Shown in pieces: positions 18,071 to 58,901 of a stretch of 64,000 nt of DNA. Position numbers and translations under genes: made by a program. How positions within the stretch are numbered: the stretch's first letter is position 1; each line of letters opens with the position of its first letter. Source of the DNA: an uncultured Pelagibacteraceae bacterium (GTDB lineage Bacteria; Pseudomonadota; Alphaproteobacteria; Pelagibacterales; Pelagibacteraceae); assembly GCA_902612575.1 (NCBI GenBank), contig CACMDZ010000003.1, positions 54,610 to 118,609 on the forward strand. Direction: 5' to 3'. The notes under the pieces are model-generated. The model had not been told where the DNA came from. It was given only the letters and a program-made list of their open reading frames with translations, and searched no databases.

Positions 18071-18117
18071 AAGAGTAATTTAATTTAATCTTCAATATAG
18101 TCTCAATTTAATAATTT

Positions 18118-18150
18118 AAAAGTGCCTACGAATGATACATAGGCACTTTT
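18118..18150 (-). terminator. intercistronic hairpin between fbpA-like and fbpB-like genes (attenuator/stabiliser)
   Basis: Perfect 11-bp stem AAAAGTGCCTA (18118-18128) / TAGGCACTTTT (18140-18150). Confidence 0.75.
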
Positions 18151-18162
18151 ATTAAGAAAAGG

Positions 18163-22912: not shown

Positions 22913-24532
22913 TCACATATTTCCATACTTAGGTCCGCCGCCACCTTCTGGAGTAACCCATGTAATATTTTGTGATGGCTCTTTTATATCGCAAGTTTTG
23001 CAATGAATACAGTTTTGAGAATTTATAACAAACTTTTCAACTTCATTTTCTTTCTGTATTTCATAAACACCAACAGGACAATATCTTTGAGCAGGCTCAT
23101 CATATTTTCCTAAGGTATATTTAATTGGCAAATCTTTATCTTTAAGTTGAAGATGAACAGGTTGATTATCAGTATGGTTTGTTCCAGTTAAGTAAACTGA
23201 ACTAGTTTTATCAAATGTAATCACATTATCTGGTTTTGGATACTCTATTTTAGGCATTTCATTAGCGGGCTTCAATGTTTCGTGATCAGCATGTTTATGT
23301 TTGAGGGTAAAAGGTAATTTTCCTTTAAATAAAATTTGATCAATTCCTGTAAATATTATTCCTAAAATTAAACCCCAACTAAAACTTGGTTTAACATTTC
23401 TAGCTTCATACAATTCTTTAAAAACCCAACTATTTTTAAATTTTTCCTCATAAACAGATAATTCTTTGTTTAAATTTAAATGATCTATGATAGTTTCAGC
23501 TGCAATCATCCCGCTCTTCATTGCCGTGTGAGAACCCTTTATTTTTGGCATATTTAAAGTACCAGCATCACAACCAACCAATAATGCACCTGGCATAAAC
23601 ATTTTAGGCAAACTTTGAAAACCACCTTCTATAAGTGCTCTTGCTCCATAGGATATTCTTTTACCACCTTCCAACATTGATTTGATTGTAGGATGAGTTT
23701 TAAATCTTTGAAATTCATCAAAAGGAGATAGATGAGGATTTTTATAATCAAGCCCTATGACATAACCTAAAAAAATCTGTTTATTTTCAGCATGATAAAC
23801 AAAGCTTCCTCCATAAGTATTATTATCTAAAGGCCAGCCCGCTGTATGCATTACTAAACCTTCTTCATGTTTTTCCTCTTTTAATTCCCAAATTTCTTTG
23901 AAACCAATTCCATATTGTTGTGGATCTTTTCCTTTATCTAATTCAAATTTTTTGATTAATTCTTTTCCTAAATGACCCCTGCAACCTTCAGCGAAAACTG
24001 TTACCTTTCCATGGAGCTCCATTCCAGGTTCATAGCTATCTTTTTTATTTCCATCTTTATCTAAACCCATATCTTGAGTTACAATACCTTTCACAGAACC
24101 ATCTTCATTATATAAAACCTCACTTGCAGGAAACCCTGGAAATATTTCAACACCTAAATTTTCAGCTTGCTCTGCTAACCATCTACATAAATTAGCAAGA
24201 CTAATTATATAGTTATTGTGATTTTGTTGAACTTTAGGCAATAACCAAGTTGGCCAACTAATTTTTTTAGTCTTTCCTAAAAATAAAAATTTTTCTTTAG
24301 TAACTTTTGTTTTAATTGGTGCATTAAGATCTTTCCAATTAGGCAATAGTTCATCTAAAGCTCGTGTTTCAAACACGTTCCCTGATAAAATATGTGCACC
24401 TATTTCAGATGCTTTTTCTAACAGGCAGACATTAATATCTGGATTTAACTGCTTTAATTTAATTGCAGTTGAAAGTCCTGATGGTCCGCCACCTACGATT
24501 ACTACATCGTATTCCATCACTTCTCTGGACAT
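22913..24532 (-). CDS. electron transfer flavoprotein-ubiquinone oxidoreductase
   Basis: FAD motif VVIVGGGPSGLSTAIKL; C-terminal 4Fe-4S NCIHCKTCDIKEPSQNITWVTPEGGGGPKY. Confidence 0.95.
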   Translation of the reverse strand: MSREVMEYDVVIVGGGPSGLSTAIKLKQLNPDINVCLLEKASEIGAHILSGNVFETRALDELLPNWKDLNAPIKTKVTKEKFLFLGKTKKISWPTWLLPKVQQNHNNYIISLANLCRWLAEQAENLGVEIFPGFPASEVLYNEDGSVKGIVTQDMGLDKDGNKKDSYEPGMELHGKVTVFAEGCRGHLGKELIKKFELDKGKDPQQYGIGFKEIWELKEEKHEEGLVMHTAGWPLDNNTYGGSFVYHAENKQIFLGYVIGLDYKNPHLSPFDEFQRFKTHPTIKSMLEGGKRISYGARALIEGGFQSLPKMFMPGALLVGCDAGTLNMPKIKGSHTAMKSGMIAAETIIDHLNLNKELSVYEEKFKNSWVFKELYEARNVKPSFSWGLILGIIFTGIDQILFKGKLPFTLKHKHADHETLKPANEMPKIEYPKPDNVITFDKTSSVYLTGTNHTDNQPVHLQLKDKDLPIKYTLGKYDEPAQRYCPVGVYEIQKENEVEKFVINSQNCIHCKTCDIKEPSQNITWVTPEGGGGPKYGNM

Positions 24533-24553
24533 GTTAATTTTTTACAGTATTTG

Positions 24554-25507
24554 TTATTTTTGTATAGTGTTTAATTTGTTCAACTCCTCTAAGAATTGAG
24601 GAAGTGCTTCGAATAAATCAGCTTCTAGGCCGTAGTCTGCGACACTAAAAATTGGTGCCTCACCGTCTTTATTTATAGCCACGATAACTTTACTTTCTTT
24701 CATGCCAGCTAAATGCTGGATGGCCCCAGAGATTCCAACTGCTATATATAAGTCTGGAACTACTACTTTACCTGTTTGTCCAACCTGATGTTCGTTTGTA
24801 ATATAACCTGCATCAACCGCTGCTCTTGATGCCCCTATTGCAGCATTTAATTTGTCTGCAACATCAGTTATTAATTTGAAATTCTCACCACTTTGCAACC
24901 CTCTTCCTCCAGAAATAACAATTCTAGCTGTTCCTAATTCAGGTCTATCTGATTTAATTTCCTCTCTGTTTACAAATTTTGTTTTTTCAGTTTTATCTGC
25001 TGCATCCACTTTCTCAATTTCTGCTGACCCACCTGTGGTTTCAGCCGCCTCAAATGATGTTGGTCTTATTGTTATACACTTTTTATCGTCATTACTTTTG
25101 ACAGTAGCAAATGCATTACCAGCATAAATTGGTCTTAGGAATGTATCTGGAGCAATTACTTTTATTATATCACTCACTTGAGAAATATCTAATAATGCAG
25201 CAATTCTAGGCATTAGATTTTTTCCAAAGGTATTTGCTGAACAGACTATATGAGAATATTTATCAACATGTTTTAAAATTGCTGAAGTATAATTTTCAGC
25301 AATATAATTTTCATAAATTTCATTGTCCATATGAAGTACTTTTTTTACCAAAGGTACCTCAGATAAGGATTTTGCAACGTCATCTGCATTATGACCAATC
25401 AATAAAACATGTAGGTCTTGATCTATTTGAGATGCAGCTGTAATTGCGTTTAAAGTAAATGATTTGACTTCTTTATTGTTATGCTCTGCTATCAATAAAA
25501 CTGACAT
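24554..25507 (-). CDS. etfA: electron transfer flavoprotein alpha subunit
   Basis: [17 protein letters not shown]...[46 protein letters not shown]. Confidence 0.95.
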
Positions 25508-26256
25508 TATATTACCTTAGCCTCATTTTTTAATTTTTGCACCAACTCCTCAACACTAGCAACCTTTATACCTGCTTTTCTTTTTGGCGGTTCCTCAATT
25601 TTAATATGTTCTATTCTAGGGTTAGTATCAACTCCTAGATCTGACGCATTAATTTGTTCAATAGGTTTTTTCTTTGCTTTCATAATATTTGGTAGTGATG
25701 CATATCTTGGTTCATTTAGTCTTAAGTCACATGTCACTATTGCAGGTGTATTAACTTCAATAGTTTCTAGACCCTCATCGACTTCTCTAGTTACTTCTAA
25801 TGAATTTTCTTTAACCTCAATTTTTGAAGCAAAAGTAGCTTGAGGCCAGTTTAAATGTGCAGCCAACATTTGACCAGTTTGGTTGCAATCATCGTCAATT
25901 GCTTGTTTACCCATGAAAACTAAATCCGGATTTTCTTTTTCAACAATTTTTTTAAGAATTTTAGAAACAGCAAGAGGTTCTAGTATACTATCCACTTTTA
26001 CATGAATACCTCTATCCGCTCCAACTGCTAGTGCTTTTCTAACAGTCTCTTGGGCTTTTTCTTCTCCAACTGTTACAGCTATTATTTCTGAAGCTTTTCC
26101 AGCCTCTTTAATTTTAACAGCTTCCTCAATTGCATTATCATCTGGTGGATTAGTTGACATTTTAACATTGTCTGTCACAACGCCACTGCCATCCTCTTTT
26201 ACTCTTATTTGGACGTTATAATCAATTACCCTTTTTACAGCGACTAAAATTTTCAT
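25507..26256 (-). CDS. etfB: electron transfer flavoprotein beta subunit
   Basis: [26 protein letters not shown]...[41 protein letters not shown]. Confidence 0.95.
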
Positions 26257-28691
26257 TATGCTCTTAATAATTTATTTTCTGTATCATAAGGACTCTCTTC
26301 TAAAATTGTTGCCTCATGCATCTTACCAAGTATATCAATCTTTAGTTTTTGTCCAATATTAGCTAGCTCTGGCTTAACCATTCCTAGTGCGATAGATTTT
26401 CCTAGTCTAAAACCAAAATCACCTCCTGTTGCTCTACCGACAACACTACCATTTTCATAAATAGGGTTATTTCCAAGCACATCTGCATCACTTGTTTCAT
26501 GAACTTCTAAAGTAACAAGTTTGTTATCAAAACCTTTCTCTCTCCATTTATTCAAAGCTTCTAAACCAATAAAACTGCCTTTATTTGGATGGACAAATCT
26601 ATCTAAACCACTTTCATATGGTGAATATTCAATGGATAATTCGGTGCCAACCAATTTATAAGATTTTTCAACTCTTAAACTGTTCATAGCTCTTATACCA
26701 TATGGCTTTAAACCTAAATCTTGTCCTGCATCCATTAACTTATCAAAAATATGGTTTTGATATTCAATAGGATGATGTAGTTCCCAACCTAACTCTCCTA
26801 CAAAATTTACTCTCATTGCATTTACTGGGGCAAATCCTACATCTACTTGTTTTGCACTTAACCATTTAAAATTATCATTTGAAAAATCATCATTAGATAC
26901 TCTTTGCATTAACTCTCTGGCTTTTGGTCCTGATACAACTAGAACACCTTTGCTGTTTGTTAAATTTTCAAATTGAACAGATCCATCTTTTGGCATCCAA
27001 CCTAATATCCAGTCATGATCTAACCTTTGAAATGCTCCAGCAGAAACCAAATAAAAACTACTTTCCGATTCTCTCATTATTGTAAATTCTGAATGAACAC
27101 CACCTTTAGTATTCAATGCATGACATAAATTAATTCTACCTATTTTTTTTGGAAGTTTGTTTGCGACCAACTTATCTAAAAATTCCTCAGCTCCAGGACC
27201 TTTTATTCTACATTTTGCAAATGCTGTCATATCTAGTAGACCAACATTTTCCTTTACATTCTTGCACTCTTTCTCAATAGCTTTGAACCAATTTGATCTT
27301 CTAAAAGACCAATCGTCCTTTTGCTCCATCCCATCAGTTGCAAAAAAATTAGGTCGTTCCCATCCAAACTTTTGACCAAAAACTGCACCAAGATTTTTCA
27401 TTCTGTCATAACAAGGTGCTGTTCTTAATGGTCTTGCAGCTGGTCTTTCTTCATCTGGAAAGTGAGTTATAAATACATGGCTGTAAGCTTCCTCATTTTT
27501 CTCTTTAAGATAAGATTTTGAGCAATAATCACCATATCTTCTTGGCTCAACACCTAACATATCTATTGTTGGCTCTCCATCTACAATCCACTCTGCTAAT
27601 TGCCAACCTGCTCCACCAGCGGCAGTAATTCCAAAGCTGTGACCTTCATTTATCCAAAAATTTTTTAAACCCCATGCTGGTCCAACAATGGGATTTCCAT
27701 CAGGTGTATAACAGATAGCACCGTTGTAAACTTTTTTAACTCCTACTTCTCCAAAAGCAGGGACTCTATGTATTGCACCTTCGATATGTGGTGCAAGTCT
27801 ATCCAAGTCTTCTTGGAATAATTCGTATTCAGACTCTTTGGAAGGACCATCAACATAACATGCTGGAGCTCCATCTTCATAGGGACCTAATATTAAACCA
27901 CCGGCCTCTTCTCTCATATACCATCTACTATCACTATCTCTTAATACTCCCATCTCAGGTAATCCATCTTTTTTTCTTTTTTGAATTTCTGGATGTGGCT
28001 CTGTTACAATATATTGATGTTCAACAGGTATTACCGGAATGTCCAAACCAACCATTTTTCCAGTCTGTCTAGCAAAGTTTCCAGAGCAAGAGATTACATG
28101 TTCGCATTCTATTGACCCTTTATCTGTTTCAACAATCCAACCATCTTTATTTTGTCTCATCGCTAAAACTGTTGTGTTTCTATATATCTCAGCTCCTCTA
28201 TTTCTCGCCCCTGTTGCTAACGCTTGAGTTAGATCCGCAGGTTGAATGTAGCCATCTTCAGGATGTTGTATTGCTCCAACTAGATCATCTGTATGACATA
28301 ACGGCCAAATTTCTTTAACTTGTTCAGGAGTTAAAAATTTAACATCTACTCCGATTGTTTTAGCAACACCCGCATACTGATGGTATTCATCCATCCTGTC
28401 TTTATTGCTTGCTAATCTGATATTTGATACAACACTAAATCCAACATTCTTTCCAGTTTCCTCTTCTAAACTTTTATATAAATTGACTGCATACTTATGA
28501 AGTTGTCCTACTGAATAACTCATATTAAATAATGGAAGAAGTCCCGCAGCATGCCATGTGGAACCTGAAGTTAATTCTTTTCGTTCAACTAATACAACAT
28601 CAGACCAACCTTTTTTTGCTAAATGATAAAGCGCGCTGACACCTACAACGCCTCCCCCAACTACTACGACTTTTGCTTTTGATTTCATCAT
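26256..28691 (-). CDS. FAD/GcvT fusion, dimethylglycine dehydrogenase-like
   Basis: [44 protein letters not shown]...; C-terminal GcvT domain; abuts etfB. Confidence 0.9.
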
Positions 28692-34889: not shown

Positions 34890-34890
34890 T

Positions 34891-37925: not shown

Positions 37926-37926
37926 G

Positions 37927-38967
37927 TTAGTATTTTATTTCTTTATTGACGTCTTTCAATGTCTTGTCTGTCCCATGGTGAAAATGTTTAGTCATATCTG
38001 GCATGTACTTCATGGCAATTGGTTTTTTACCAACTGCAACAGCCATTTCTCTAACATGATGAGCTTCAGCACCACAACAAATACCGATTAAATTAATTTT
38101 TTCTTTAATACATTCTTTTGCAAATTCAGCCATTTCAAATCTGTTACAATATAAATTATCTAGAGCAACAGGGAATGCATTTCCTCCAGGAATGCAGTCA
38201 CATCCATGATCTGTCTGATTCAAAAATCCTGGTTCTTCCTCTGTTGTTCTATATGGAACAGGAAGACCTGCAACATGACAGGAAACTTCTTTTCTTATTT
38301 TTTTTAAAAGTTTCATGGTCATTTCTGGACCTCTATAACAATTCAAACCAACAACATCAGCACCAAGATCTTCAATTATTTTACATGCGTCTTCAGCAGT
38401 GTGGCCATCTCTTGTCAAATCACCACGAGGTATTGCATAATTGGCAACTGCAATCAAACCTTCATCCTTAATTGCTTTTAAAGCTATCTTCATTTCATCT
38501 ACCCAATTAATTGTTTCTGCGACTACAAAGTCAACTCCTGCCTCTTTTGCCCAAAGCACTTGCTCTTCGTACATCTTTTGACATTCTTTGAATGAGTTTT
38601 TGTCTTTTGGATCAAAAATATTTGTATTAGCAACATCTCCACAAACCATTAAATCTAAATCTTTAAATTCTTTCGCAGCATCCTTTGCAATTTTAAGTGC
38701 ATTTTTTTGCATCGGCTCTAGCAAATGTTCTTTTCCAATAATTCTTAATTTCTCTCTATGTCCATAATAGGTGAAAGCTTGAACAATATCTGAACCAGCT
38801 CTAATAAATTCTCTATGTAATTGTGTAACTACATCAGGATGTTCTAGCACTACTTCTGGCACAAATGGACCTGCAGAAAGATATCCTCTCCTTTCCATCG
38901 CAAATAAATATCCCTCTGCGAATATTACGGGACCCTCATCTAATCTTGATAATAAATTTTTATTCAT
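37927..38967 (-). CDS. bhmT: betaine-homocysteine S-methyltransferase
   Basis: FAMERRGYLSAGPFVPEVVLEHPDVVTQLHREFIRAGSDIVQAFTYY, GLNCYRGPE, GICCGAEAHHVR zinc ligands. Confidence 0.88.
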   Translation of the reverse strand: MNKNLLSRLDEGPVIFAEGYLFAMERRGYLSAGPFVPEVVLEHPDVVTQLHREFIRAGSDIVQAFTYYGHREKLRIIGKEHLLEPMQKNALKIAKDAAKEFKDLDLMVCGDVANTNIFDPKDKNSFKECQKMYEEQVLWAKEAGVDFVVAETINWVDEMKIALKAIKDEGLIAVANYAIPRGDLTRDGHTAEDACKIIEDLGADVVGLNCYRGPEMTMKLLKKIRKEVSCHVAGLPVPYRTTEEEPGFLNQTDHGCDCIPGGNAFPVALDNLYCNRFEMAEFAKECIKEKINLIGICCGAEAHHVREMAVAVGKKPIAMKYMPDMTKHFHHGTDKTLKDVNKEIKY

Positions 38968-39099: not shown

Positions 39100-40110
39100 A
39101 TGAAAATCAAAAAATTACTTCTATCTGCTGCTGTAATATTTGGACTAACTTCTTTTGGAAGTGTTGCCAACGCAGCTTGTGGGAACATAACTATCGCTAA
39201 TATGAACTGGGCTTCAGCAAACTTCATGGCTGAAGTTGACAAAATCATATTAGAAGAAGGTTACGGATGTTCTGTTGAATTGGTGCCAGGTGCAACAATG
39301 CCTACATTTACATCTATGCAAGAAAAAGGTGAGCCAGATGTTGCTCCAGAATTTTGGGCTAACGCTGCAATCATTGCTTTAAATAAAGCAGTTGATGAAG
39401 GAAAAATGCACTCACTTAATAAAGCACCTATTACTGGTTTAGGTGAAGGATGGTGGGTGTTACCTGCTACTTTAGAAAAACATCCTGAACTTACAACTGC
39501 TGAAGCAATTTTGGCAAGACCGGATCTATTTCCTCATCCAGAGGATCCATCAAAAGGTGGGTTTCATATTTGTCCTCCAGGATGGAACTGTGAACTAAGT
39601 AATAGAAATCTTTACAAAGCTTTTGACATGGAAGCAAAAGGTTGGGCTATTGTTGAAACAGGTTCTGCTGCAGGATTAGATGGATCAATTGCTAAAGCTG
39701 CTGAAAGAGGTGAAAACTGGTTTGGTTACTATTGGTCACCAACAGCTATCATTGGTAAATATGATATGAGAGCTGTGGACATGGGAGCTTGGGGTGGAAA
39801 AGATAACTGGGATAAATGTATAGTTTTACCAGAACAAGAATGTGGAGACCCTAAAGCAACTTCATGGACAAAATCTGAAGTTTACACAATCGTAACTGAC
39901 AATTTCAAAAATACAGCTGGAAGTGCTGGTATGGATTATTTCAAAAAAAGAACTTATCCAGGTCCAGTAATGAACGGTATGTTAGTTTGGATGGGTGAAA
40001 ACCAAGCAGAGGGTGCTGATGCTGCAATTGAATTCCTAACAAACCAAGAAGATGTTTGGTCTAAGTGGGTTTCAAGTGAAGCTGCTGCAAAAATAAAAAA
40101 AGCACTTTAA
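39100..40110 (+). CDS. proX: glycine betaine/proline-type ABC substrate-binding protein (ProX/OpuAC-like)
   Basis: Signal peptide; NMNWASANFMAEVDKIILEEGYGCSVELVPG, GEGWWVLP, NWFGYYWSPTAI. Confidence 0.9.
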   Translation: MKIKKLLLSAAVIFGLTSFGSVANAACGNITIANMNWASANFMAEVDKIILEEGYGCSVELVPGATMPTFTSMQEKGEPDVAPEFWANAAIIALNKAVDEGKMHSLNKAPITGLGEGWWVLPATLEKHPELTTAEAILARPDLFPHPEDPSKGGFHICPPGWNCELSNRNLYKAFDMEAKGWAIVETGSAAGLDGSIAKAAERGENWFGYYWSPTAIIGKYDMRAVDMGAWGGKDNWDKCIVLPEQECGDPKATSWTKSEVYTIVTDNFKNTAGSAGMDYFKKRTYPGPVMNGMLVWMGENQAEGADAAIEFLTNQEDVWSKWVSSEAAAKIKKAL

Positions 40111-40125
40111 TAAAATAAAATATTG

Positions 40126-40151
40126 CCAAACCCACTCTTTAGTGGGTTTGG
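40126..40151 (+). terminator. intercistronic hairpin between proX and proW (attenuator/3' stabiliser; no T tract)
   Basis: 11-bp perfect stem CCAAACCCACT (40126-40136) / AGTGGGTTTGG (40141-40151), 4-nt loop. Confidence 0.75.
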
Positions 40152-40163
40152 TTGAGTAAAATT

Positions 40164-41048
40164 ATGGATTTCTTTAATAAAATTCCTGTAATGGATCGAA
40201 CAGCTTTAAGAGAGCTTAAAAAAGGAATAGACTCTAGTTTTAAAGAATTTTCAAGAGCCTATGGAGATGGAATTGAAGGTTTTTTTGATCCACTTTTGCA
40301 TTTTTTAATTTGGTTAGAAAAATTATTAGTAAACAGTCCTTGGCCATTAGTAATAGGTGTATTTGCTTTGTTGGCATGGATTGGATCAAGAAGTATTAAA
40401 CTGGTAATAGGTACAATAGTTTGTTTTATGATTATTGGTTATTTTGGAATGTGGAAAAACTGTATGGCTACTGTTGCAATAATATCTGTTTCAACATTAG
40501 TTTGTATTGTAGTCGGTATTCCAATTGGTGTGTTAATGTCTAAATCAAGCAGAGCAGAAAAAGCAATTTTACCCGTTTTGGATATGATGCAAACTATTCC
40601 AAGTTTTGTTTATTTAATTCCTATAATTATGCTTTTAGGTATTGGAAAAGTGCCTGGTTTATTGGCAGTTTGTATTTATGCTTTACCACCGGTAGTAAGG
40701 CTGACAAATCTTGGAATAAGAGAAGTAGATAAAGAAACACTTGAGGCAAGTGAGGCTTTTGGTGCAACTCCAATGCAAAAATTAAAATCTGTACAAATAC
40801 CATTGTCGTTACCTACAATTTTTGCAGGAATTAACCAAACAATTATGATGGCGTTGGCTATGGTAGTTATCGCATCAATGATAGGTGTTAAAGGGCTTGG
40901 AGTTCCTATTTTACAAGCTATTTCTAATCAATATTTAGCACTTGGAATGATGAATGGTTTGGCAATAGTAGCTCTAGCAATCATCTTTGATAGAGTTACA
41001 CAGCAGTATGGTCAAAGAATTCAAAAACACAGAGGTCAGAAAAAATAA
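40164..41048 (+). CDS. proW: glycine betaine/proline-type ABC permease (ProW-like); ATG at 40164 preferred over TTG 40152
   Basis: VVGIPIGVLMSKSSRAEKAILPVLDMMQTIPSFVYLIPIIMLLGIGKVPGLLAVCIYALPPVVRLTNLGIREV. Confidence 0.92.
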   Translation: MDFFNKIPVMDRTALRELKKGIDSSFKEFSRAYGDGIEGFFDPLLHFLIWLEKLLVNSPWPLVIGVFALLAWIGSRSIKLVIGTIVCFMIIGYFGMWKNCMATVAIISVSTLVCIVVGIPIGVLMSKSSRAEKAILPVLDMMQTIPSFVYLIPIIMLLGIGKVPGLLAVCIYALPPVVRLTNLGIREVDKETLEASEAFGATPMQKLKSVQIPLSLPTIFAGINQTIMMALAMVVIASMIGVKGLGVPILQAISNQYLALGMMNGLAIVALAIIFDRVTQQYGQRIQKHRGQKK

Positions 41049-41110: not shown

Positions 41111-41839
41111 ATGAATTTTTCATTAGAAATTGGACCTCACACTGATCTTGATACTTTGCCAAGTGTGAAAGATGTATATGTCACAATGCTACCTGGAGGT
41201 GATTATAGGGAGACTGCTGACAAGTCTGGAGATTTGGTAAAAAAAGGTTTTAACCCAGTTCCTCATTTTCCAGCTAGATCAATTAATAGCGAAAGTGAAT
41301 TGAAAGATTATGTTTCAAGATGCAAAGATTTAGGTGTGAAACAAGTTCTGGTAATTGGAGGCAGTCGTGAACCTATTGGAAAATTTGATAGCTCTTATCA
41401 GATATTAGAAACAGGATATTTTGATAAGATTAAGATCGGAATTGCTGGACATCCAGAGGGGAGTCCTGATATATCCGATTCAGATTTAGAAAAAGCTATG
41501 ACAGATAAAAAGCCTTATGCTGATTATATAGTTACTCAGTGGTTACTTGATGCTCAGCCTATTGTAGATTTTATTTCTAAACAAACGATACCAGTTCATG
41601 TCGGAATAACTGGGCCAATGAAAATTTCAAGCTTAATAAAGTTTGCAAATATTGTAGGGGCAAAAAATTCCATTAATTTTCTTAAATCTAATTTTACTAA
41701 GGCATTAGATTTATTGAAACCTAAAGACCCTAATGATCTAATTGGGAAAGTTAAATCGCATACTGATTATTTTCACATTTATACATTCGGCGGCTTGAAG
41801 GAAACAAACAAGTGGTTGAAGGAGAATAACTATGTCTAA
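41111..41839 (+). CDS. short methylenetetrahydrofolate reductase (MetF)-like protein
   Basis: PHFPARSI, KQVLVIGGSREPIGKF, IGIAGHPEGSPD, DYIVTQWLLDAQPIVDFI match the MTHFR TIM-barrel pattern; 242 aa. Confidence 0.75.
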   Translation: MNFSLEIGPHTDLDTLPSVKDVYVTMLPGGDYRETADKSGDLVKKGFNPVPHFPARSINSESELKDYVSRCKDLGVKQVLVIGGSREPIGKFDSSYQILETGYFDKIKIGIAGHPEGSPDISDSDLEKAMTDKKPYADYIVTQWLLDAQPIVDFISKQTIPVHVGITGPMKISSLIKFANIVGAKNSINFLKSNFTKALDLLKPKDPNDLIGKVKSHTDYFHIYTFGGLKETNKWLKENNYV

Positions 41840-43190
41840 AGAATTTGACTATAGTAAGCTAAGACACGTAACATCAGTAGATCAATCTGATAGAAAAGTG
41901 CCTTATAATTTAAGACAAAGCGGACCAACAAAAGTTGAAATGTTAATTTCAACACGTGTAAGAAAATCACCATACTGGCATTTGTCAATGCAAGCTGGTT
42001 GTTGGAGAGCAACTGTATATAATCGTATTTACCATCCAAGAGGGTATGTAAAACCTGAAGACGGAGGTGCAATGGTTGAGTACGATGCAATTGTTAATCA
42101 TGTAACAATGTGGAATGTTGCAGTTGAAAGACAAATTAGAGTGAAGGGCCCTGATGCAGAAAAATTTGTAGACTATGTAATTACAAGAGATGCTACAAAA
42201 ATTTCTCCGATGAGAGCAAGATATGTAATTCTTTGTAATGCATATGGCGGTGTATTAAATGATCCTATACTTTTAAGAATATCAAAAGACGAATTTTGGT
42301 TTAGTTTGTCTGATAGTGATATAGGTCTTTATTTACAGGGTGTAAACTCCGATGAGAGATTTAATGTAGAAATTGATGAGATAGATGTAAGTCCTGTTCA
42401 AATTCAAGGACCAAAATCTAAAGCGTTAATGAAAGACTTATGTGGAGATCAAGTTGATTTTGATAACATGCCTTTCTACGGTTTAGCTGAAGCTAAAGTT
42501 GGTGGAAGAAGCTGTGTAATTTCTCAATCAGGATTCTCAGGTGAAGCAGGTTATGAGATATATTTGAGAGAATGCACTTTATACGCTGAAGATATGTGGA
42601 ATGCTGTTCTTGATGCGGGTAAAAAACATAGTTTAATGGTAATTGCTCCAGCTCACCATAGAAGAATTCAAGCTGGAATTCTTTCTTGGGGGCAAGATAT
42701 GGATAACCAACACAATCCATTCCAATGTAATTTAGGTTATCAAGTTTCATTATCCGGAAAAGGTGAATGGAATAAAAAAGCTGACTATGTTGGAAAAAAA
42801 GCTCTTGAAAAAATGAAAGCTGATTTAAAAGCTGGACATAAACCTTATAAACTTCAACTAGTTGGACTAGAGTTAGGTGGAAAGCCAATTGAGGAATACG
42901 CTCCTGATTTTTGGTTAATTTCAGATGAAGGTGGTGGAGAGCCAATTGGGTTTATTACTTCGCCTTGGTATCACCCTGAAAAAAAACAAAATATTGCAAT
43001 GGGATATGTGCCTTTTGATGGAACATTGAACGCAAATGGTTTTCCAAAAGGAAAAGTAGGATCTAAATTTAAGGTGCATTTACCTGAAAAATATTCTGAA
43101 ACTCCAGGTAAACCAGTAGATGCTGTAATAGTTGATATACCATTTAAAGAGTCTTACAACGCAAATACTAGAGAAGTTGTAAAAGGTTAA
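41832..43190 (+). CDS. GcvT-family, DmdA-like THF-dependent demethylase
   Basis: TMWNVAVERQIRVKGPDAEKFVDYVITRD, FWFSLSDSDIGLYLQGV, RRIQAGILSWGQDMDNQHNPFQC; start overlaps MetF-like stop. Confidence 0.8.
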   Translation: MSKEFDYSKLRHVTSVDQSDRKVPYNLRQSGPTKVEMLISTRVRKSPYWHLSMQAGCWRATVYNRIYHPRGYVKPEDGGAMVEYDAIVNHVTMWNVAVERQIRVKGPDAEKFVDYVITRDATKISPMRARYVILCNAYGGVLNDPILLRISKDEFWFSLSDSDIGLYLQGVNSDERFNVEIDEIDVSPVQIQGPKSKALMKDLCGDQVDFDNMPFYGLAEAKVGGRSCVISQSGFSGEAGYEIYLRECTLYAEDMWNAVLDAGKKHSLMVIAPAHHRRIQAGILSWGQDMDNQHNPFQCNLGYQVSLSGKGEWNKKADYVGKKALEKMKADLKAGHKPYKLQLVGLELGGKPIEEYAPDFWLISDEGGGEPIGFITSPWYHPEKKQNIAMGYVPFDGTLNANGFPKGKVGSKFKVHLPEKYSETPGKPVDAVIVDIPFKESYNANTREVVKG

Positions 43191-43774: not shown

Positions 43775-43938
43775 AGAGGAAATACAGTCTTTGAGGTTCT
43801 ACAAGATTTACACAATTTGTATCCTGTCATAATTAAATTTTGCGTAACGCTTTCATCTTCTTTATGACATTCTTCACAAATCTCGTCTAAATCTTTTAAA
43901 TTTTTCTCCAAAAAATCATCTTTTTTTTTATCAGTCAT
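43771..43938 (-). CDS. 55-aa zinc-ribbon-like microprotein (below the ORF-track length cutoff)
   Basis: Hand translation: MTDKKKDDFLEKNLKDLDEICEECHKEDESVTQNLIMTGYKLCKSCRTSKTVFPL*; two CxxC knuckles; ATG 43938 overlaps the end of the upstream gene (ATGACTGA). Confidence 0.7.
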   Translation of the reverse strand: MTDKKKDDFLEKNLKDLDEICEECHKEDESVTQNLIMTGYKLCKSCRTSKTVFPL

Positions 43939-44539
43939 TATCTGTTAAACCAGCCCCTGCAGTTCTTGATTTAGACTCCTCGCTTTCCTCAACATAAGTT
44001 TTAATTGAAAGTTTATGCATTTCTAACCAATCATCCTCGGAGAAGTTATTTTTATTATCTAAAAATTTAATATTTATTTTGTCTGATTTTTCTAAAATAT
44101 CTCCACTTAAATAATTAGAATAAATAGATTCATTAAAATTAAACAAAAACTCTTTATTGTCCATTTTTAAGAATATTCTTTTACCAATTATCTCTGACGC
44201 CCTACTCAAAAAAGATAAAAATATGAGAGGAAAAGCTATTTTATTAATTTCAATTTCATTAAATTTTAAAATTACAGGTGATTGATCATAAAAATTTAAC
44301 CCACAAAATATAGGACAATAATATCCTTTTGCTGTATTTGTAGATGAAATTTCTCCAATATTTTCAAAGTTACTAATATTATAAATTTTAAAGTATTGGT
44401 TAAGATTTTTAAGTCCTGGCAAACCAAACATTTCAATTAATCTTATATTTTTTCCAACTTCCTCAGAAATACCCCATGAAAAACCTTTAGCCTTAGTTGC
44501 TCTTTTAATTGTAGTTTCTATTTCGCTATAACTTCTCAT
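43931..44539 (-). CDS. DUF3726-like conserved protein
   Basis: MRSYSEIETTIKRATKAKGFSWGISEEVGKNIRLIEMFGLPGL; similar to the DUF3726 pattern as remembered. Confidence 0.55.
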   Translation of the reverse strand: MRSYSEIETTIKRATKAKGFSWGISEEVGKNIRLIEMFGLPGLKNLNQYFKIYNISNFENIGEISSTNTAKGYYCPIFCGLNFYDQSPVILKFNEIEINKIAFPLIFLSFLSRASEIIGKRIFLKMDNKEFLFNFNESIYSNYLSGDILEKSDKINIKFLDNKNNFSEDDWLEMHKLSIKTYVEESEESKSRTAGAGLTDND

Positions 44540-44545
44540 ACGAAA

Positions 44546-46198: not shown

Positions 46199-47166
46199 TA
46201 ATTAATTCCTTTATAAAAATTAAACCAATTGTTTCCTAAAATATCATTTACTTCATTTTCATTAAAACCTATTTTTTTCAATCCTTTTTCTAAATTACTA
46301 AACCCTCTTGCATCAACAAACCATTCAGGTTGATCAGGAAATTCTGGTTTACTTTTACTTCCCTCACCATAATTTTTTGTTTTACTCCACGTTCCATTCC
46401 TCATCCACTCGACGATACTATTTGGTTGATTCAAACAAAGGTCAGAACCAATACCTATATTTTTTACGCCCATTATTTCAACGGTTTTTGCAACCATTTC
46501 ACAAAAGCTATCTAATTTACAATTTGTTCCATCTTTTAGATGATGTGCATACAAAGAAAGTCCAAGCATTCCTCCACTGTTTGATAAATGTTTTAAAAGT
46601 GTTTCAGATTTATTTCTTAAAGCACTATGCCAAAAAGACGGATTAGCATGAGTAATTGCAATTGGTTTTTCGCTAATATCTATAGCATCTAATGTACTTT
46701 TTTCACCTGAATGGGACATATCAATAACTATTCCAATTCGATTCATTTCTTTTATAGCTTCTCTTCCAAAGTTTGTCACACCAGAGTCGTTTTTTTCATA
46801 ACATCCTGTAGCTAACAGAGATTGGTTATTATAAGTAAGTTGCATAAATCTGCATCCATGATGGTGAACTTTCTCAATTAAGTTAATATCATCCTCAATT
46901 GGAGAACAGTTTTGAAAACCAAAAAATATTGCAGTTTTATTTTCTGACTTTGCCCTTATAATATCTTTGAAAGTTTTTCCCAAAAATATTAGATCTGAAT
47001 TTTCATTAAATAAGTTATCCCATTCTTTCAATTTAATTAAAAATTCATCATAGTCTTCATGATATACTACTGTTGCATGTACTGCATTCAGTCCAGCATC
47101 TCTGTTGATTTTAAAAATATCTCTTGACCAGTTGCAATATTGAAGATTATCAATTCGATAATTCAT
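46198..47166 (-). CDS. M19 (membrane/renal dipeptidase) family protein
   Basis: HHHGCRFMQLTYNNQS, GIVIDMSHSGEKSTLDAIDISEKPIAITHANPS, NIGIGSDL. Confidence 0.85.
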   Translation of the reverse strand: MNYRIDNLQYCNWSRDIFKINRDAGLNAVHATVVYHEDYDEFLIKLKEWDNLFNENSDLIFLGKTFKDIIRAKSENKTAIFFGFQNCSPIEDDINLIEKVHHHGCRFMQLTYNNQSLLATGCYEKNDSGVTNFGREAIKEMNRIGIVIDMSHSGEKSTLDAIDISEKPIAITHANPSFWHSALRNKSETLLKHLSNSGGMLGLSLYAHHLKDGTNCKLDSFCEMVAKTVEIMGVKNIGIGSDLCLNQPNSIVEWMRNGTWSKTKNYGEGSKSKPEFPDQPEWFVDARGFSNLEKGLKKIGFNENEVNDILGNNWFNFYKGIN

Positions 47167-51989: not shown

Positions 51990-52577
51990 CTAAATACATT
52001 TATAGCCATATTCTAGTGAAGCATCAGTTATTGAGTGGTACATAGATTCCCCAAAACTACGAAGTGAAAAAATTCTAGCTTTTTCAGGATCATCTTCAAC
52101 CATATCAACTAAAAAAGATATTCCGTTATATGATGAGTTGATGCACATATTTTTACTAAATATATTGAAATTAAACGGACAACCTTTTTTTAAAACCTCT
52201 TTAACATTAGGTCCTTCTATTTCTATAATTGCTTTTGAGTGTGAGAGATCTGTAACAGCAAAGTCGCTATCATTAAAATTTTTCAAAATTTCACTAAAAA
52301 GTTCTTTTTTTTTGGAAACAACAAGCCAATTGTTTGGTGAATTCCACAATATTCTTAAATTTTCATTTGCGACAACTTTTTGTGTTTCATTAACAAATTG
52401 CAATTTATTAAGTTTTATATCATTTATTTTAATTGAAGAATTTTTGTACTGAACTATTTGAACAATTAATAAATTTTTTAACTCAGAAATTTTCAATAAT
52501 TCATTTTCAGTTTTATTTTCAAAATTTCCATAAGAGCCCTCTGAATGAATGTTCTGCAAAGGTGATATCATTGTCAT
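51990..52577 (-). CDS. soxG: sarcosine oxidase gamma subunit
   Basis: Position downstream of soxA; LRILWNSPNNWLVVSKK, DLSHSKAIIEIEGPNVKEVLKKG. Confidence 0.85.
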   Translation of the reverse strand: MTMISPLQNIHSEGSYGNFENKTENELLKISELKNLLIVQIVQYKNSSIKINDIKLNKLQFVNETQKVVANENLRILWNSPNNWLVVSKKKELFSEILKNFNDSDFAVTDLSHSKAIIEIEGPNVKEVLKKGCPFNFNIFSKNMCINSSYNGISFLVDMVEDDPEKARIFSLRSFGESMYHSITDASLEYGYKCI

Positions 52578-55570
52578 GATCTAACTCTCTTTCCTTCAGG
52601 ATCTACATAATGAGAAGAGACAATCTCTACAGGTATCGTTTTATTTTTTAAAGGTGACATAGCAAAGAGTTTTTGTCCTATCATATTTTTACCATCTTTA
52701 ATTATTGCTAAAGAAAATGGGTTATCATATTCAACACTCCAACATGAGGCCGAAACATGACCTAATTTTGGGTTAGGTAATTTTGCTTTTGGATCTTTTA
52801 CTATGTAAGATCCCTCAGGTATACTTGTAGTTTTATCAATTGGAACTACGCCAACTAATTTTTCTCTATCCGTAGATGTAAAGGCAGATCTGTTTAAAGA
52901 TCTTTTGCCTATAAAATCTTTTTTCTTACTAACTAGCCCTTCTAAAGATGCATCGTAAGGGATTGTTCTTCCATCTAATTCAGATCCTGCAACATGGCCC
53001 ATTTCTATTCTTAAAGTTGATAAAGCTTCAGTTCCATATGGTTGTATTTGAAATTCTTTTCCAACTTCCATGATTTTTTCCCACATGAAATATCCGTTAT
53101 CAGATTCAACGTTAATCTCATATGCTAACTCACCAGAAAACGAAATTCTGTAAATTTTTGCAGGAACTCCAAATAAATCAGCCTCTTTATAACCCATAAA
53201 TGGCAAACCTTCGTTTGAAACATCTAAATTAGGGAATAATTTAATTAATAATTTTCTAGAATTAGGTCCTGCGATTGCTGCGCCTGCCCATTGCTCTGTG
53301 GTTGATACAACGTTTACATTTAATTCTGGCCACACTAGTTGTAAATAATATTCTAAATGAGATAGAACATTTGCTGCTTGAGCTGTTGTAGTTGTCATGT
53401 GATAATGATTTTCGGAAATCCTTGTTGTCGTTCCATCATCCATTACAATTCCATCTTCTCTTAACATTACACCGTATCTTGCTTTACCTACTGGAAGTTT
53501 TAGCCAAGCGTTAGTATAAACTCTATTTAAAAATTCTGCTGCATCTGGTCCTTTAACATCTATTTTACCTAATGTTGTAACATCACATACGCCTACATTT
53601 TGTCTTACATTCTTTGCCTCTCTTTTTGATGCTTCAAATAACCCTTCATTTCCTTGCTTGTAATATCTTGGTCTTAACCAAACCCCTGCATCAACAAAAA
53701 CTGCATTATTTTTTTCATGCCATGAGTGCATAGGTGATTTCCTTGTTGGTTTAGAATGCTTACCAACTTCTCTTCCTACAATTGCTCCAATTGAAACTGG
53801 AGTATAAGGAGGTCTAAAAGTCGTATGTCCTACTTGTGGAACAACTTTATTCTCAATATCAGAAACTAATTGTAATCCATTTAAATTACTCGTTTTTCCT
53901 TGGTCGGTAGCCATACCAAGTGTTGTATATCTTTTTACATGCTCGATAGACCTGAAACCTTCTCTTAGCGCTAGCTCAATATCAGAAACCGCTACGTCAT
54001 TTTGAAAATCTAAAAACCTTTTATAAGATTTACCTTTTGGTAAAGGAACACACCAAAATTTGTCATGATCCGATGATTTTTTTTCTACTACTGTCGGAAC
54101 TGAAACTTTATTATTTTTTTCAGTTATTTTATTTGAAACATCAAAACCTTTATCAAAAGCATCTTTAATAGTTTCCTCCAATGTAAATATTCCATTTGCT
54201 GACCCAATTGTATTTTCTTTTTGTTTAGATTTATCTGGTACAAATGCATCAATTTTTTCGTTAAATTTAGATTTGTTTCCTGACTGCGATGCTAAATGAA
54301 TAGATGGTGTCCAAAAACCTGATACACAGATACAATCACATTCAATATTTTCTATGTTAAATAATTCTTTTTTATCGTCAGATATTTTAGCAATATCTGC
54401 TGATTTAACTTTTTTATAGCCTTTTGCAGCAACAACTACATAGGAGAACCTAATTTCAATATTTAAATTTTTTGCCTCAGTTATAATATCTGAAGAAGGA
54501 TTACTTCTTGTATCCAATATGATTGGATTTACTCCATTTTTTTTAAATTCAATTGCAGTTTCATAACCACTATCATTGTTTGTGAAAATTAAAGGTTTTT
54601 TTCCAACTAATACGCCGTAAACTTTCATATACTCTTTAGCAGCTGACGATAACATAACGCCAGGAGTATCATTATTTCCAAAAACTAAAGGTCTTTCAAT
54701 TGAACCTGATGAAATCAATACTTCATTTGCTCTTATGTACCACAAACGTTGTTTAGGGAGATATTTTTGAGTTTTTGGCAAGTGATCACTAATACGCTCT
54801 GACATTACTAACATATTGTGATCATAGTAACCAAAAACTTGTGATCTATTTTTTACTGTAACATTAGGCATGGACTTAAGTTCTGCTATAATTTTTTCTG
54901 TCCACTCAATACCTGTTTGGTTTCCGATATTTACATCGCTTGTTAATAAGCTACCTCCAAATCTTGGTTTATCCTCAGCCAATATTACCCGGGCTCCATT
55001 CTTGGCAGCGGCATAAGCACTTGCTAAACCTGAAGGCCCAGATCCTGTTATTAATAAATCACAATACTCATATTTATGCTCATATCTTTCTTTATCATGT
55101 TTGATAGAGGCTTCTCCAAATCCAGCCGCCATTCGAATAAAAGGTTCATATATTTTATACCAAAAGCTAGGAGGCCACATAAATGTTTTGTAATAGAAAC
55201 CAGCTGGAAAAAACATTTTTAAGAAATTGTTTATCGCACCAATGTCAAAACTTACACTAGGCCAACAATTAACACTCTTAACCTCTAGCCCTTCAAAAAT
55301 TTCTTGTTCTGTTGCTCTTATATTTGGATCTCTCTCGTTATTTCTATCTAACTGTAGAATTGCATAGGGCTCATCAACGCCAACTCCAAAAAAACCCCTA
55401 GGTCTGTGATATTTAAAACTTCTACCTACTAAATGAACTCCATTCGCTATTAAGGCAGATGCGATAGTATCTCCCTCGAAACCAAAATATTTTTTGCCAT
55501 TAAATTTAAACGAGATTTTTTTTTCTCTATTGACCATTCCAACATTATCTAATCTAAAATCCTGGGACAT
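52574..55570 (-). CDS. soxA: sarcosine oxidase alpha subunit
   Basis: 998 aa; ISFKFNGKKYFGFEGDTIASALIANGVHLVGRSFKYHRPRG; FAD domain plus C-terminal GcvT domain. Confidence 0.97.
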   Translation of the reverse strand: MSQDFRLDNVGMVNREKKISFKFNGKKYFGFEGDTIASALIANGVHLVGRSFKYHRPRGFFGVGVDEPYAILQLDRNNERDPNIRATEQEIFEGLEVKSVNCWPSVSFDIGAINNFLKMFFPAGFYYKTFMWPPSFWYKIYEPFIRMAAGFGEASIKHDKERYEHKYEYCDLLITGSGPSGLASAYAAAKNGARVILAEDKPRFGGSLLTSDVNIGNQTGIEWTEKIIAELKSMPNVTVKNRSQVFGYYDHNMLVMSERISDHLPKTQKYLPKQRLWYIRANEVLISSGSIERPLVFGNNDTPGVMLSSAAKEYMKVYGVLVGKKPLIFTNNDSGYETAIEFKKNGVNPIILDTRSNPSSDIITEAKNLNIEIRFSYVVVAAKGYKKVKSADIAKISDDKKELFNIENIECDCICVSGFWTPSIHLASQSGNKSKFNEKIDAFVPDKSKQKENTIGSANGIFTLEETIKDAFDKGFDVSNKITEKNNKVSVPTVVEKKSSDHDKFWCVPLPKGKSYKRFLDFQNDVAVSDIELALREGFRSIEHVKRYTTLGMATDQGKTSNLNGLQLVSDIENKVVPQVGHTTFRPPYTPVSIGAIVGREVGKHSKPTRKSPMHSWHEKNNAVFVDAGVWLRPRYYKQGNEGLFEASKREAKNVRQNVGVCDVTTLGKIDVKGPDAAEFLNRVYTNAWLKLPVGKARYGVMLREDGIVMDDGTTTRISENHYHMTTTTAQAANVLSHLEYYLQLVWPELNVNVVSTTEQWAGAAIAGPNSRKLLIKLFPNLDVSNEGLPFMGYKEADLFGVPAKIYRISFSGELAYEINVESDNGYFMWEKIMEVGKEFQIQPYGTEALSTLRIEMGHVAGSELDGRTIPYDASLEGLVSKKKDFIGKRSLNRSAFTSTDREKLVGVVPIDKTTSIPEGSYIVKDPKAKLPNPKLGHVSASCWSVEYDNPFSLAIIKDGKNMIGQKLFAMSPLKNKTIPVEIVSSHYVDPEGKRVRS

Positions 55571-55839
55571 TATTCTATTGCTTCGTTTGCTTTATAAGTT
55601 TTAAAAATTTCGTGAGTTGATGTATCTCTCTCAACTTTAATCCATTGTCTACATCCAGAAATATGATGCCATAATTCTAAATGTTTTCCTCTTGGACTTT
55701 TTCTTAAGTATACAAAATTATCCCACTCTTGATCGCTTATTTCTTTATTAAGTTCAGGACGCTTTACTGTTGCATCCCCGCCATAAGCAAATTCATTCTG
55801 AGATCTAAGTCCACAATGTGGACAGTTGATATATAACAT
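55570..55839 (-). CDS. soxD: sarcosine oxidase delta subunit
   Basis: LYINCPHCGLRSQNEFAYGGDA ... ELWHHISGCRQWIKVERDT. Confidence 0.95.
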   Translation of the reverse strand: MLYINCPHCGLRSQNEFAYGGDATVKRPELNKEISDQEWDNFVYLRKSPRGKHLELWHHISGCRQWIKVERDTSTHEIFKTYKANEAIE

Positions 55840-57096
55840 TTATGATATCCAGGTTTTAGTTCCTAGGCCTTTTTCATCAATTAAATTTCCAGTGCTAAAT
55901 CTGTTGAGGCTGTAACCGGCATTTAAATCATGAACTCTGTCTTGGGCAATTGTATGTGCAAAAGTCCATCCGGAAGCTGGAGTTGCTTTAAATCCACCAT
56001 AGCACCAACCACAATTTAAGTATAATCCGTTAATATGTGTTTTATCTATAATTGGTGAACCATCCATGGACATATCCATTATTCCACCCCAAGTTCTTAA
56101 CATTTTTAATTTGCTAAGAAATGGAAACATCGCAATCCCTTCTGTTAAAACATGTTGAAGAGTAGGTAAGTTTCCTCTTTGAGAATAACTATTATATCCA
56201 TCCAAGTCTCCACCCATAACCATTTCTCCTTTATCTGATTGGCTACAATAAAAATGTCCTGCACCAAATGTAACAACATGATCAAGCAAAGGTTTAATAG
56301 GCTCTGATACACATGCTTGAAGCAAATGAGTTTCAATTGGTAAAGTCATATTTAACATTTCTGCCAAAATATTTGTACTTCCTGCAACACATAAACCAAC
56401 TTTCTTTGCTTTAATATCTCCTTTAGAAGTTCTTACTCCAAGAATTTTTCCATTTGAGACATCAAATCCTGTAACTTCACAATTTTGAATTATATCAACA
56501 CCCATGGAGTCCGCTTGTCTCGCATAACCCCAGGCAACAGCATCGTGTCTTGCTGTTCCAGCGCTTGGTTGCATCAAGCCTCCAAAAATTGGAAACCTTA
56601 CATTGTCAGAAAAGTCTGCCATTGGAATTAACTTTTGTACTTCTTCTCTATTTAACAAAACCGCATCAATGCCGTTCAAACGCATCGAATTTCCCCTTCT
56701 TGAATAGGCATTCATTTGTGCATCTGAGTGGGCAAGATTAATTATTCCTCTTGGGGAAAACATTACATTGTAATTTAAATCTTGGCTCATCTTTCTCCAA
56801 AGGTCCATACCAAATTCGCTAAACAAACCATTCTCATCATGCATGTAATTAGACCTAATAATTGTAGTATTCCTTCCAACGTTTCCTCCACCTATCCAAC
56901 CTTTTTCAATGATAGCAACATTTGTAATGTTGTGTTCTTTTGCTAAGTAATATGCGGTTGCTAATCCATGGCCTCCCCCACCAATGATAATTACATCGTA
57001 TTCTTTTTTAGGTGTTGGGTCTTTCCATGCAACTTCCCAATTTTGATGATCTGAGAATGCATTTTTTATTAGACTAAAAACTGAGTATTTTTGCAT
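55840..57096 (-). CDS. soxB: sarcosine oxidase beta subunit
   Basis: YDVIIIGGGGHGLATAYYLAKEHNITNVAIIEKGWIGGGNVGRNTTIIRSNYM. Confidence 0.97.
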   Translation of the reverse strand: MQKYSVFSLIKNAFSDHQNWEVAWKDPTPKKEYDVIIIGGGGHGLATAYYLAKEHNITNVAIIEKGWIGGGNVGRNTTIIRSNYMHDENGLFSEFGMDLWRKMSQDLNYNVMFSPRGIINLAHSDAQMNAYSRRGNSMRLNGIDAVLLNREEVQKLIPMADFSDNVRFPIFGGLMQPSAGTARHDAVAWGYARQADSMGVDIIQNCEVTGFDVSNGKILGVRTSKGDIKAKKVGLCVAGSTNILAEMLNMTLPIETHLLQACVSEPIKPLLDHVVTFGAGHFYCSQSDKGEMVMGGDLDGYNSYSQRGNLPTLQHVLTEGIAMFPFLSKLKMLRTWGGIMDMSMDGSPIIDKTHINGLYLNCGWCYGGFKATPASGWTFAHTIAQDRVHDLNAGYSLNRFSTGNLIDEKGLGTKTWIS

Positions 57097-57224: not shown

Positions 57225-58901
57225 ATGTCAAAAACAGATATCCAAATTGCAAGAGAAGCAAATATGAAACCAATTCAAGAGATTTTGGATGGAGTTGGTG
57301 TTCCAGATAATGCTGAGGCATATAGTCCAATAAGTAGATACATAGCTAAGATCAAACTCGAATATCTTGAAAAATTTAAAAATAAAAAAGACGGAAAATT
57401 AATATTAGTTACTGCAATTACTCCTACTCCAGCTGGAGAAGGAAAAACAACCACATCAGTGGGATTATCAGATGGATTAAACAAAATAGGTAAAAAATCT
57501 ATTGTTTGTTTAAGAGAGCCAAGTTTAGGTCCTTCATTTGGAATGAAAGGTGGTGCGGCTGGTGGTGGTTATGCGCAAGTCGTTCCTATGGAACAAATAA
57601 ATCTTCATTTCACAGGTGACTTTCATGCAATCACTTCTGCTCACAATCTTTTATCTGCTTTAATAGATAACCATATATATTGGGGTAATAAATTAAATAT
57701 TGATGTAAGAAGAATAGTTTGGAAAAGAGTACTTGATATGAACGATCGAGCATTAAGATCTATCAATATTAATCTTGGTGGTGTTGCAAATGGTTTCCCA
57801 AGAGAAGATGGTTTTGATATTACAGTTGCATCCGAAATCATGGCGATCTTTTGTTTATCTAATGATCTACATGATCTTGAAAATAGAATTGGAAATATAA
57901 CTGTTGCTTACACAAGAGATAAAAAACCAATTTATGCAAAAGATTTAAATGCACATGGTCCAATGACTGTTTTGTTAAAAGATGCAATTAGACCAAATGT
58001 AACTCAAACTTTGGAAAATAATCCCGCAATAATCCACGGAGGTCCTTTCGCTAATATTGCACATGGTTGTAATTCTGTATTAGCAACTAAGACAGCATTA
58101 AAACTATCAGACTATGTTGTTACTGAAGCAGGATTTGGTGCCGATCTAGGTGCTGAAAAATTCTTAGATATAAAATGTAGAAAATCAGGATTAAAACCAA
58201 GTTGTGTGGTGATTGTAGCAACTATAAGAGCATTAAAAATGCACGGCGGTGTTAACAAAGATGAACTTAAAAATGAAAATATAGATGCTGTAAAAAAAGG
58301 ATTGGTGAATTTAGAAAGACATATTGAAAATATTCAAAAATTTGGCTTGCCTGTTACAGTAGCTATTAATCACTTTGTTTTGGATACAGACAAAGAGGTC
58401 GATGAAGTTATAAAATTTTGTCAACAAAAAGGTGTAACAGCATCAATATCTAAACATTGGGAAAAAGGTGGAGAAGGAGCAGTAGATTTAGCAAACAATG
58501 TTGCTGAACTGTGTGAAAAAGAAAGTGACTTCAAATTTTTATACGATGATAAAATATCATTATTTAAAAAAATTGAGACGATTGCTAAGGAATTGTATAG
58601 AGCAAGTGAAGTTGTAGCGGATACTAAAATAAGAGAACAATTAAAAAATTTTGAAGAGACAGGTTACCAATCCTTGCCAATTTGTATTGCAAAGACACAA
58701 TATAGTTTTTCTACAGACCCTAATTTAAAAGGCGCACCATCCGGACATGTCCTACCAATAAGAGAAGTAAGGTTATCATCGGGAGCAGAATTTATCGTAG
58801 TTGTTTGCGGTGCTATAATGACTATGCCTGGGTTACCAAAGGTGCCAGCTGCAGATAAAATAAAAATTAATGATAAAGGTGAAACAGAAGGATTATTTTA
58901 A
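57225..58901 (+). CDS. fhs: formate-tetrahydrofolate ligase
   Basis: [72 protein letters not shown]. Confidence 0.98.

Follow-up and report, generated by a model that had tools for sequence, protein, structure and literature searches.

The gene pair SAR11_1264/1265 of Ca. Pelagibacter ubique HTCC1062 was described in 2011 by Sun et al., with its substrate given as unknown and MMPA demethylation offered as a guess (PMC3160333). We analyzed a pair of the same annotation, gene order and SAR11 core status in a window of 64,000 nt (the whole stretch of DNA under study) from an uncultured Pelagibacteraceae (SAR11) bacterium (GCA_902612575.1, contig CACMDZ010000003.1, positions 54,610–118,609 of the forward strand). 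Judged by annotation, order and core status, the two pairs are almost certainly orthologous; whereas MMPA was guessed for SAR11_1264/1265, we propose glycine betaine (GBT) for the pair in the window. The gene pair is a known one, and its functional assignment to GBT, a substrate that a previous sequence-only reading of the window had not singled out, is new and testable.

Several named systems resemble the pair in part. The larger protein, here called AMT452, has DmdA (PDB 3tfh, 3tfi and 3tfj) as its best PDB match and shares with it the GcvT fold, the N-D-P motif and equivalents of E204 and Y206. It differs from DmdA in sequence (~30% identity to the P. inhibens enzyme), in length (83 aa more than the enzyme of Pelagibacter), in carrying Phe in place of W197 and in belonging to a separate clade, and no dmdBCD operon was seen at the AMT452 loci examined. 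Aryl O-demethylation in sphingomonads by LigM/DesA and MetF follows the same logic of a THF-dependent demethylase with a dedicated MetF, and LigM moves an aryl-ether methyl group to THF without B12; LigM is nevertheless a weak match to AMT452 (30 bits in PDB, 35 in NCBIfam with a cut-off of 580). BHMT, GbcAB and MtgB-MtgC perform the same net step as that proposed for AMT452, from GBT to dimethylglycine, but they use homocysteine, O2 or cobalamin, whereas AMT452 would use THF directly. We know of no B12-free folate enzyme for the first demethylation of GBT.

The gene pair and the AMT452 family

The pair consists of a 242-aa MetF-like ORF that overlaps a 452-aa GcvT-family ORF by 8 nt (Table 1). 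Both ORFs are present as the sequence-only reading had described them, and the motifs that it quoted (e.g. FWFSLSDSD) were found in the 452-aa protein. It had also called this protein DmdA-like and about 80 aa longer than SAR11 DmdA; the excess over the 369-aa crystallized Pelagibacter DmdA is 83 aa. The added length comes from an extension of 32 aa at the N terminus, measured against P. inhibens DmdA, together with several insertions, both internal and C-terminal. Neither an Rfam scan nor a tRNA scan of the whole window returned a match, and thus no SAM-V riboswitch was detected there. A promoter scan gave fewer hits than in shuffled sequences, and comparison with PHROGs yielded no match.

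Table 1. Positions of the gene pair and of other features in the window, with the basis of each assignment
Feature	Position	Strand	Basis
Short MTHFR (MetF), 242 aa	41111..41839	+	Pfam MTHFR just over cut-off; PDB 7xg9, 114 bits; sole MTHFR found in SAR11 genomes
AMT452, GcvT-fold methyltransferase, 452 aa; predicted glycine betaine:THF methyltransferase	41832..43190	+	Pfam GCV_T/GCV_T_C; clade; genome context
8-nt overlap of metF stop and AMT452 start (ATGTCTAA)	41832..41839	+	Kept in 80/80 fetched relatives
Shine-Dalgarno-like AGGAGA within metF, 6 nt ahead of the second ATG (AMT452)	41820..41825	+	Sequence
ProX and ProW, upstream neighbor of the pair, outside the conserved module	39100..41048	+	Pfam; ProX PDB match; variable presence
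Dimethylglycine dehydrogenase (DMGDH), 811 aa; predicted next step	26256..28691	-	Best PDB match DMGDH 4pab, 654 bits, versus 379 for DMG oxidase
ETF-beta, ETF-alpha and ETF-ubiquinone oxidoreductase (ETF-QO); electron acceptors for the dehydrogenase	22913..26256	-	Pfam
SoxG, SoxA (998 aa) and SoxB (418 aa); sarcosine-oxidase-type complex	51990..57096	-	SoxA 1305 bits (cut-off 1164), SoxB 676 (529), SoxG 69 (below 144)
Formate-THF ligase (Fhs); C1 oxidation	57225..58901	+	Pfam FTHFS, 897 bits
BHMT-like homocysteine methyltransferase in variable island; alternative first GBT step	37927..38967	-	Best PDB match human BHMT 1lt7, 156 bits

AMT452 belongs to the superfamily defined by the Pfam domains GCV_T (134.6 bits, cut-off 25.6) and GCV_T_C (26.7 bits, cut-off 25.9), and its best PDB match, 3tfh, scored 156 bits. 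However, the cut-offs of the narrower profiles were not reached. For the DmdA equivalog NF009133 of NCBIfam (cut-off 410), the protein of the window scored 237 bits and its relatives 239–271, compared with 600 for P. inhibens DmdA; the GcvT profiles TIGR00528 and PRK00389 gave 127 and 152 bits (cut-offs 236 and 300), and those of LigM and DesA 35 and 43 bits (cut-offs 580 and 800).

Identity among the AMT452 proteins of SAR11, other Pseudomonadota and haloarchaea is at least 50%, the divergent L148 excepted, and the relatives in other Pseudomonadota and haloarchaea are 50–85% identical. For DmdA-like paralogues, identity to AMT452 does not exceed 41%. All 33 AMT452 sequences fell into one clade of the tree (98/97), which was sister to DmdA and DmdA-like proteins (joint clade 100/100) and lay apart from the GcvT, DMGDH and SoxA domains. 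AMT452 thus nests neither within DmdA nor within GcvT, the two placements against which the sequence-only reading had staked its suggestion.

The DmdA-like catalytic features N143-D144-P145, E242 and Y244 are kept in AMT452, while in GcvT the position of N143 is Asp and that of Y244 is Met or Ala. The DMSP-specific Trp of DmdA has been numbered ‘W171’ (PMC7487153), which we matched to W197 of 3tfh via an inferred numbering offset of 26. This residue is Phe235 in 32 of 32 AMT452 proteins, with Trp found only in the basal, divergent L148; the DMSP substrate residue is hence not identical to that of canonical DmdA. On score, clade and residues, canonical DmdA, GcvT and LigM were all rejected as the identity of AMT452. 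An AlphaFold model of AMT452 built from 29 SAR11 sequences had a pLDDT of 51.

A third clade, of DmdA-like proteins, lay apart from both DmdA and AMT452 and contained a protein from contig 49 of the same genome (L008; 379 bits versus the DmdA cut-off of 410) together with L117–L127 and L167. The member on a Phaeobacter plasmid has OsmC, enoyl-CoA hydratase and acyl-CoA synthetase as neighbors.

Linkage of the pair and direction of MetF

The nearest named relatives of the pair are from Pelagibacteraceae single-cell genomes. Among 118 Pelagibacterales genomes, AMT452 was found in 96, MetF in 94 and both in 93, and in all 93 the two genes were adjacent, on the same strand and in the same order, with the 8-nt overlap in 67. 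The four exceptions were two AMT452-only hits that began at base 2 of their contigs, a partial hit interrupted by a stop codon and one MetF-only hit near a contig start. This linkage is far beyond chance. In a SAR11-related genome (G040, contig 14, 14049–14909), AMT452 contains an internal TGA, reflecting either a pseudogene or an assembly error.

The sequence-only reading had regarded the pair as a module dedicated to the compound imported by the ProXW transporter encoded upstream, a claim that did not survive the comparison: the transporter comes and goes and is replaced in many relatives. Of the 78 relatives with a readable upstream region (two others were cut off), 55 had proW directly upstream, 17 a Rieske oxygenase gene and 6 another gene, and ProXW was accordingly rejected as a module component. 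Because the upstream gene varies and the pair is adjacent in 93/93 genomes, we regard the pair as the unit and the transporter as a variable neighbor. No ATP-binding subunit follows ProX/ProW at the window locus. The sole PDB match of ProX was DmpX (7yle); in the printed alignment, the two are identical at 7 of 8 listed residues of the DMSP pocket, with Asn replacing A153. The transporter may import DMSP or betaines, but it does not define what the pair acts on. The downstream neighbors are mostly conserved among relatives; a block conserved across SAR11 relatives (43931–47166) encodes proteins that we guess to be malonyl-CoA-decarboxylase-like and dipeptidase-like, and a 202-aa unannotated protein.

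MetF marginally exceeded the cut-off of Pfam MTHFR (24.7 versus 24 bits), and it scored 24–32 bits with the profiles of canonical NAD(P)H MTHFR (TIGR00676/00677), for which the equivalog cut-off is near 300. Its only PDB match was 7xg9, which we take to be the Sphingobium SYK-6 MTHFR of aryl O-demethylation, and MetFs of sphingomonad plasmids are also related to it; an analogy with LigM-MetF, as drawn previously, is therefore reasonable. Exactly one PF02219 match was present in each SAR11 genome having any (31 of 41 genomes). SAR11 has neither MetE nor MetH (PMC5069961, PMC12478193). With a sole MTHFR and both of these enzymes absent, methyl-THF has no methionine-synthase outlet, and therefore MetF most plausibly runs in the oxidizing direction, consuming 5-methyl-THF. 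These results favor the demethylase-plus-reductase module that had been suggested from the sequence.

Context of AMT452 in and outside SAR11

Outside SAR11, in other Pseudomonadota and in haloarchaea, frequent neighbors of AMT452 were genes for DMGDH or DMG oxidase, sarcosine oxidase, betaine/choline importers, choline dehydrogenase, MTHFR, Fhs and FolD. MTHFR lay beside AMT452 at 7 of 20 non-SAR11 bacterial loci and at 7 of 8 loci on haloarchaeal plasmids, with gene order and strand varying. In several bacteria, a homology search showed no MetF beside AMT452, and the neighbors checked with Pfam were unrelated; MetF adjacency is thus not universal.

SoxB, SoxA, DMGDH, MetF and AMT452 are encoded on one strand at three loci (L134, L136 and L137), and SoxG was confirmed in L134, where the order is SoxB-SoxA-SoxG-DMGDH-MetF-AMT452. 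At L133, AMT452 lies two genes away from a DMGDH gene, after which come those for ETF and ETF-QO. L145 combines DMGDH, AMT452, SoxB, SoxA and the choline dehydrogenase BetA (786 bits, cut-off 732) with an importer made up of a binding protein, a permease and an ATPase; the locus covers choline to glycine, and nothing else in it but AMT452 is a candidate for the step from betaine to dimethylglycine. The context is similar at L142 and L144.

All eight haloarchaeal plasmids examined carried AMT452, accompanied by MTHFR on seven, one or two flavoproteins of dimethylglycine-oxidase size on six, threonine/serine ammonia-lyase on six and a BCCT transporter on five; GlyA, FolD, Fhs, formate dehydrogenase or ETF were also present on some. 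Both flavoproteins of the one haloarchaeal cluster tested best matched N,N-dimethylglycine oxidase (584 and 574 bits), and the flavoprotein of L145 best matched mitochondrial dimethylglycine dehydrogenase (641 bits). The linkage of AMT452 to two subfamilies of dimethylglycine enzyme points to dimethylglycine as the product, and hence to GBT as the substrate. A Rieske oxygenase or MttB-family protein occurs on some of these plasmids (L129, 22028–23167; L130, 1–1274), a hint that further methylated substrates may be handled by the same cluster.

We compared these associations with chance placement and with paralogue loci. Of 21 bacterial genomes, 15 (8/14 genera) had a DMGDH-family gene no more than 11 kb from AMT452, compared with 0.44 expected by chance; for DmdA-like paralogues, the figure was 2 of 18 loci, a control queried by homology search in which some contigs were short. 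The linkage of AMT452 to genes for dimethylglycine and sarcosine oxidation is thus beyond chance; it was not found for DMGDH in 6 of the 14 genera. In the 118 Pelagibacterales genomes, with shared ancestry uncorrected, AMT452 and DMGDH were both present in 95 and both missing in 13, with AMT452 alone in 1 and DMGDH alone in 9. The genera g5, g456 and g457 and most of g458, which we suspect to be brackish or freshwater lineages, had neither AMT452 nor MetF and mostly no DMGDH. In the family f2, AMT452 and DMGDH were each found in 17/18 genomes and DmdA over the cut-off in 0/18. GbcA exceeded its cut-off in one of 21 AMT452-containing genomes (another reached 636 of 670 bits) and MttB-family proteins occurred in three, so that other ways of starting GBT demethylation through either of these are mostly lacking. 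The profile PF02574, which cannot tell BHMT from methionine synthase, was uninformative for this question.

Proposed glycine betaine demethylation and alternative readings

From the linkage, clade, residues, context and distribution, we infer that AMT452 is probably a THF-dependent GBT demethylase and MetF a catabolic methyl-THF oxidase. AMT452 would transfer the first methyl group of GBT to tetrahydrofolate, yielding dimethylglycine and 5-methyl-THF, and the co-translated short MetF would convert 5-methyl-THF back to 5,10-methylene-THF. The latter could then be oxidized to CO2 through FolD, Fhs and formate dehydrogenase, while dimethylglycine would pass to the DMGDH/ETF system and then to sarcosine oxidation. 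We lean, with less assurance, toward the broader view that AMT452 is a cobalamin-, oxygen- and homocysteine-free GBT:THF methyltransferase, a protein of GcvT fold acting on a quaternary ammonium and common to SAR11 and haloarchaea. Together with MetF, it may be a major route by which methyl groups of osmolytes reach C1 oxidation in the surface ocean.

Our confidence in the demethylase assignment is held at this level mainly because we know of no precedent for methyl transfer from a quaternary nitrogen directly to THF without cobalamin; the sulfonium of the DmdA substrate is a better leaving group. Also counting against GBT are the presence of BHMT in SAR11, including the window, so that the first step is not vacant, the six genera without DMGDH linkage and the DmpX-like character of the adjoining ProX.

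GBT is a major and common marine osmolyte, and SAR11 are the most abundant bacteria of the ocean. To our knowledge, BHMT, which is tied to methionine synthesis, is the only first GBT step that has been proposed for SAR11. SAR11 cultures oxidize the methyl groups of GBT to CO2 (PMC3160333), and a 2011 haloarchaeal survey found dimethylglycine oxidases beside BCCT transporters and named no enzyme for GBT (PMC3102087). If our proposal is correct, the THF-dependent demethylase would be the missing bulk catabolic GBT step in SAR11 and would account for the single MetF retained by a bacterium that has neither MetE nor MetH; haloarchaea would gain the missing first step of their GBT use, and the GcvT fold a new chemistry. 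A search of the literature, with subscription journals and preprints mostly outside its range, found no folate-linked betaine demethylase of this family, and a prior description is possible; the nearest reports were the 2011 SAR11 paper and a paper on DmdA evolution.

It is unlikely that the pair instead demethylates a sulfur compound, DMSP or MMPA, with MetF oxidizing methyl-THF. Although the AMT452 clade is sister to that of DmdA, its members score 237–271 bits against a cut-off of 410 (Roseobacter DmdA, 600), and the DMSP-specific Trp is Phe in 32/32. The ProX of the window has a DmpX-like pocket, but the transporter does not consistently accompany the pair, and AMT452 occurs on 8/8 haloarchaeal plasmids, mostly inside dimethylglycine-oxidase clusters. 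MMPA was speculated for SAR11_1265 by Sun et al. (PMC3160333); however, sulfur limitation did not induce the pair (PMC5069961). The family f2, with AMT452 in 17/18 genomes and no DmdA over the cut-off, also argues against a sulfur substrate, yet AMT452 could be replacing DmdA there.

A donor among other quaternary ammonium compounds (carnitine, proline betaine, homarine, trigonelline or choline), or a broad enzyme for which GBT is one of several substrates, seems rather improbable: the repeated linkage to DMGDH/DMG oxidase and sarcosine oxidase fits GBT, because dimethylglycine is the product of GBT demethylation, even though several AMT452 loci have no nearby DMGDH and importers of this family are often promiscuous. 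Homarine and trigonelline were rejected as substrates, with no support found in the literature searched or the gene context. Very improbable is a role of AMT452, which sits among flavoproteins releasing C1 units, as an accessory T-protein passing those of dimethylglycine or sarcosine to THF while MetF serves other donors such as DmdA, since DMGDH, DMG oxidase and SoxA each have their own GCV_T domain and AMT452 resembles DmdA at N143 and Y244, which are residues of redox-neutral methyl transfer.

Returning to the proposed GBT demethylation by AMT452, the window encodes most of a pathway that would lead from GBT to glycine and through C1 oxidation, namely the pair, DMGDH with ETF and ETF-QO, SoxG/SoxA/SoxB-type proteins and Fhs (Table 1). 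The BHMT-like protein encoded in the window suggests that SAR11 may have two first GBT steps. A SAM-V riboswitch precedes bhmT in HTCC1062, where the gene was up 34-fold in sulfur limitation, whereas no change was reported for SAR11_1264/1265 mRNA in the sulfur-limited exponential phase and a fall to 0.1–0.2 in both stationary phases (PMC5069961). From this expression in HTCC1062, we infer that BHMT could serve methionine supply and AMT452-MetF the growth-linked bulk catabolism of GBT.

The BHMT-like gene is part of a variable island upstream of the pair (33714–38967), the makeup of which differs among relatives and which also encodes a Rieske oxygenase, a SAM-methyltransferase and a third DMGDH-type flavoprotein (801 aa). 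The Rieske oxygenase is carnitine monooxygenase-like (107 bits) and far below the GbcA cut-off. Elsewhere in the window (12128–19364), the gene of an 821-aa flavoprotein bearing a GCV_T domain lies next to those of a TauD-family dioxygenase and of an ABC importer whose subunits are of the 2-aminoethylphosphonate/polyamine type; these genes possibly serve the import and oxidation of another N-methyl compound.
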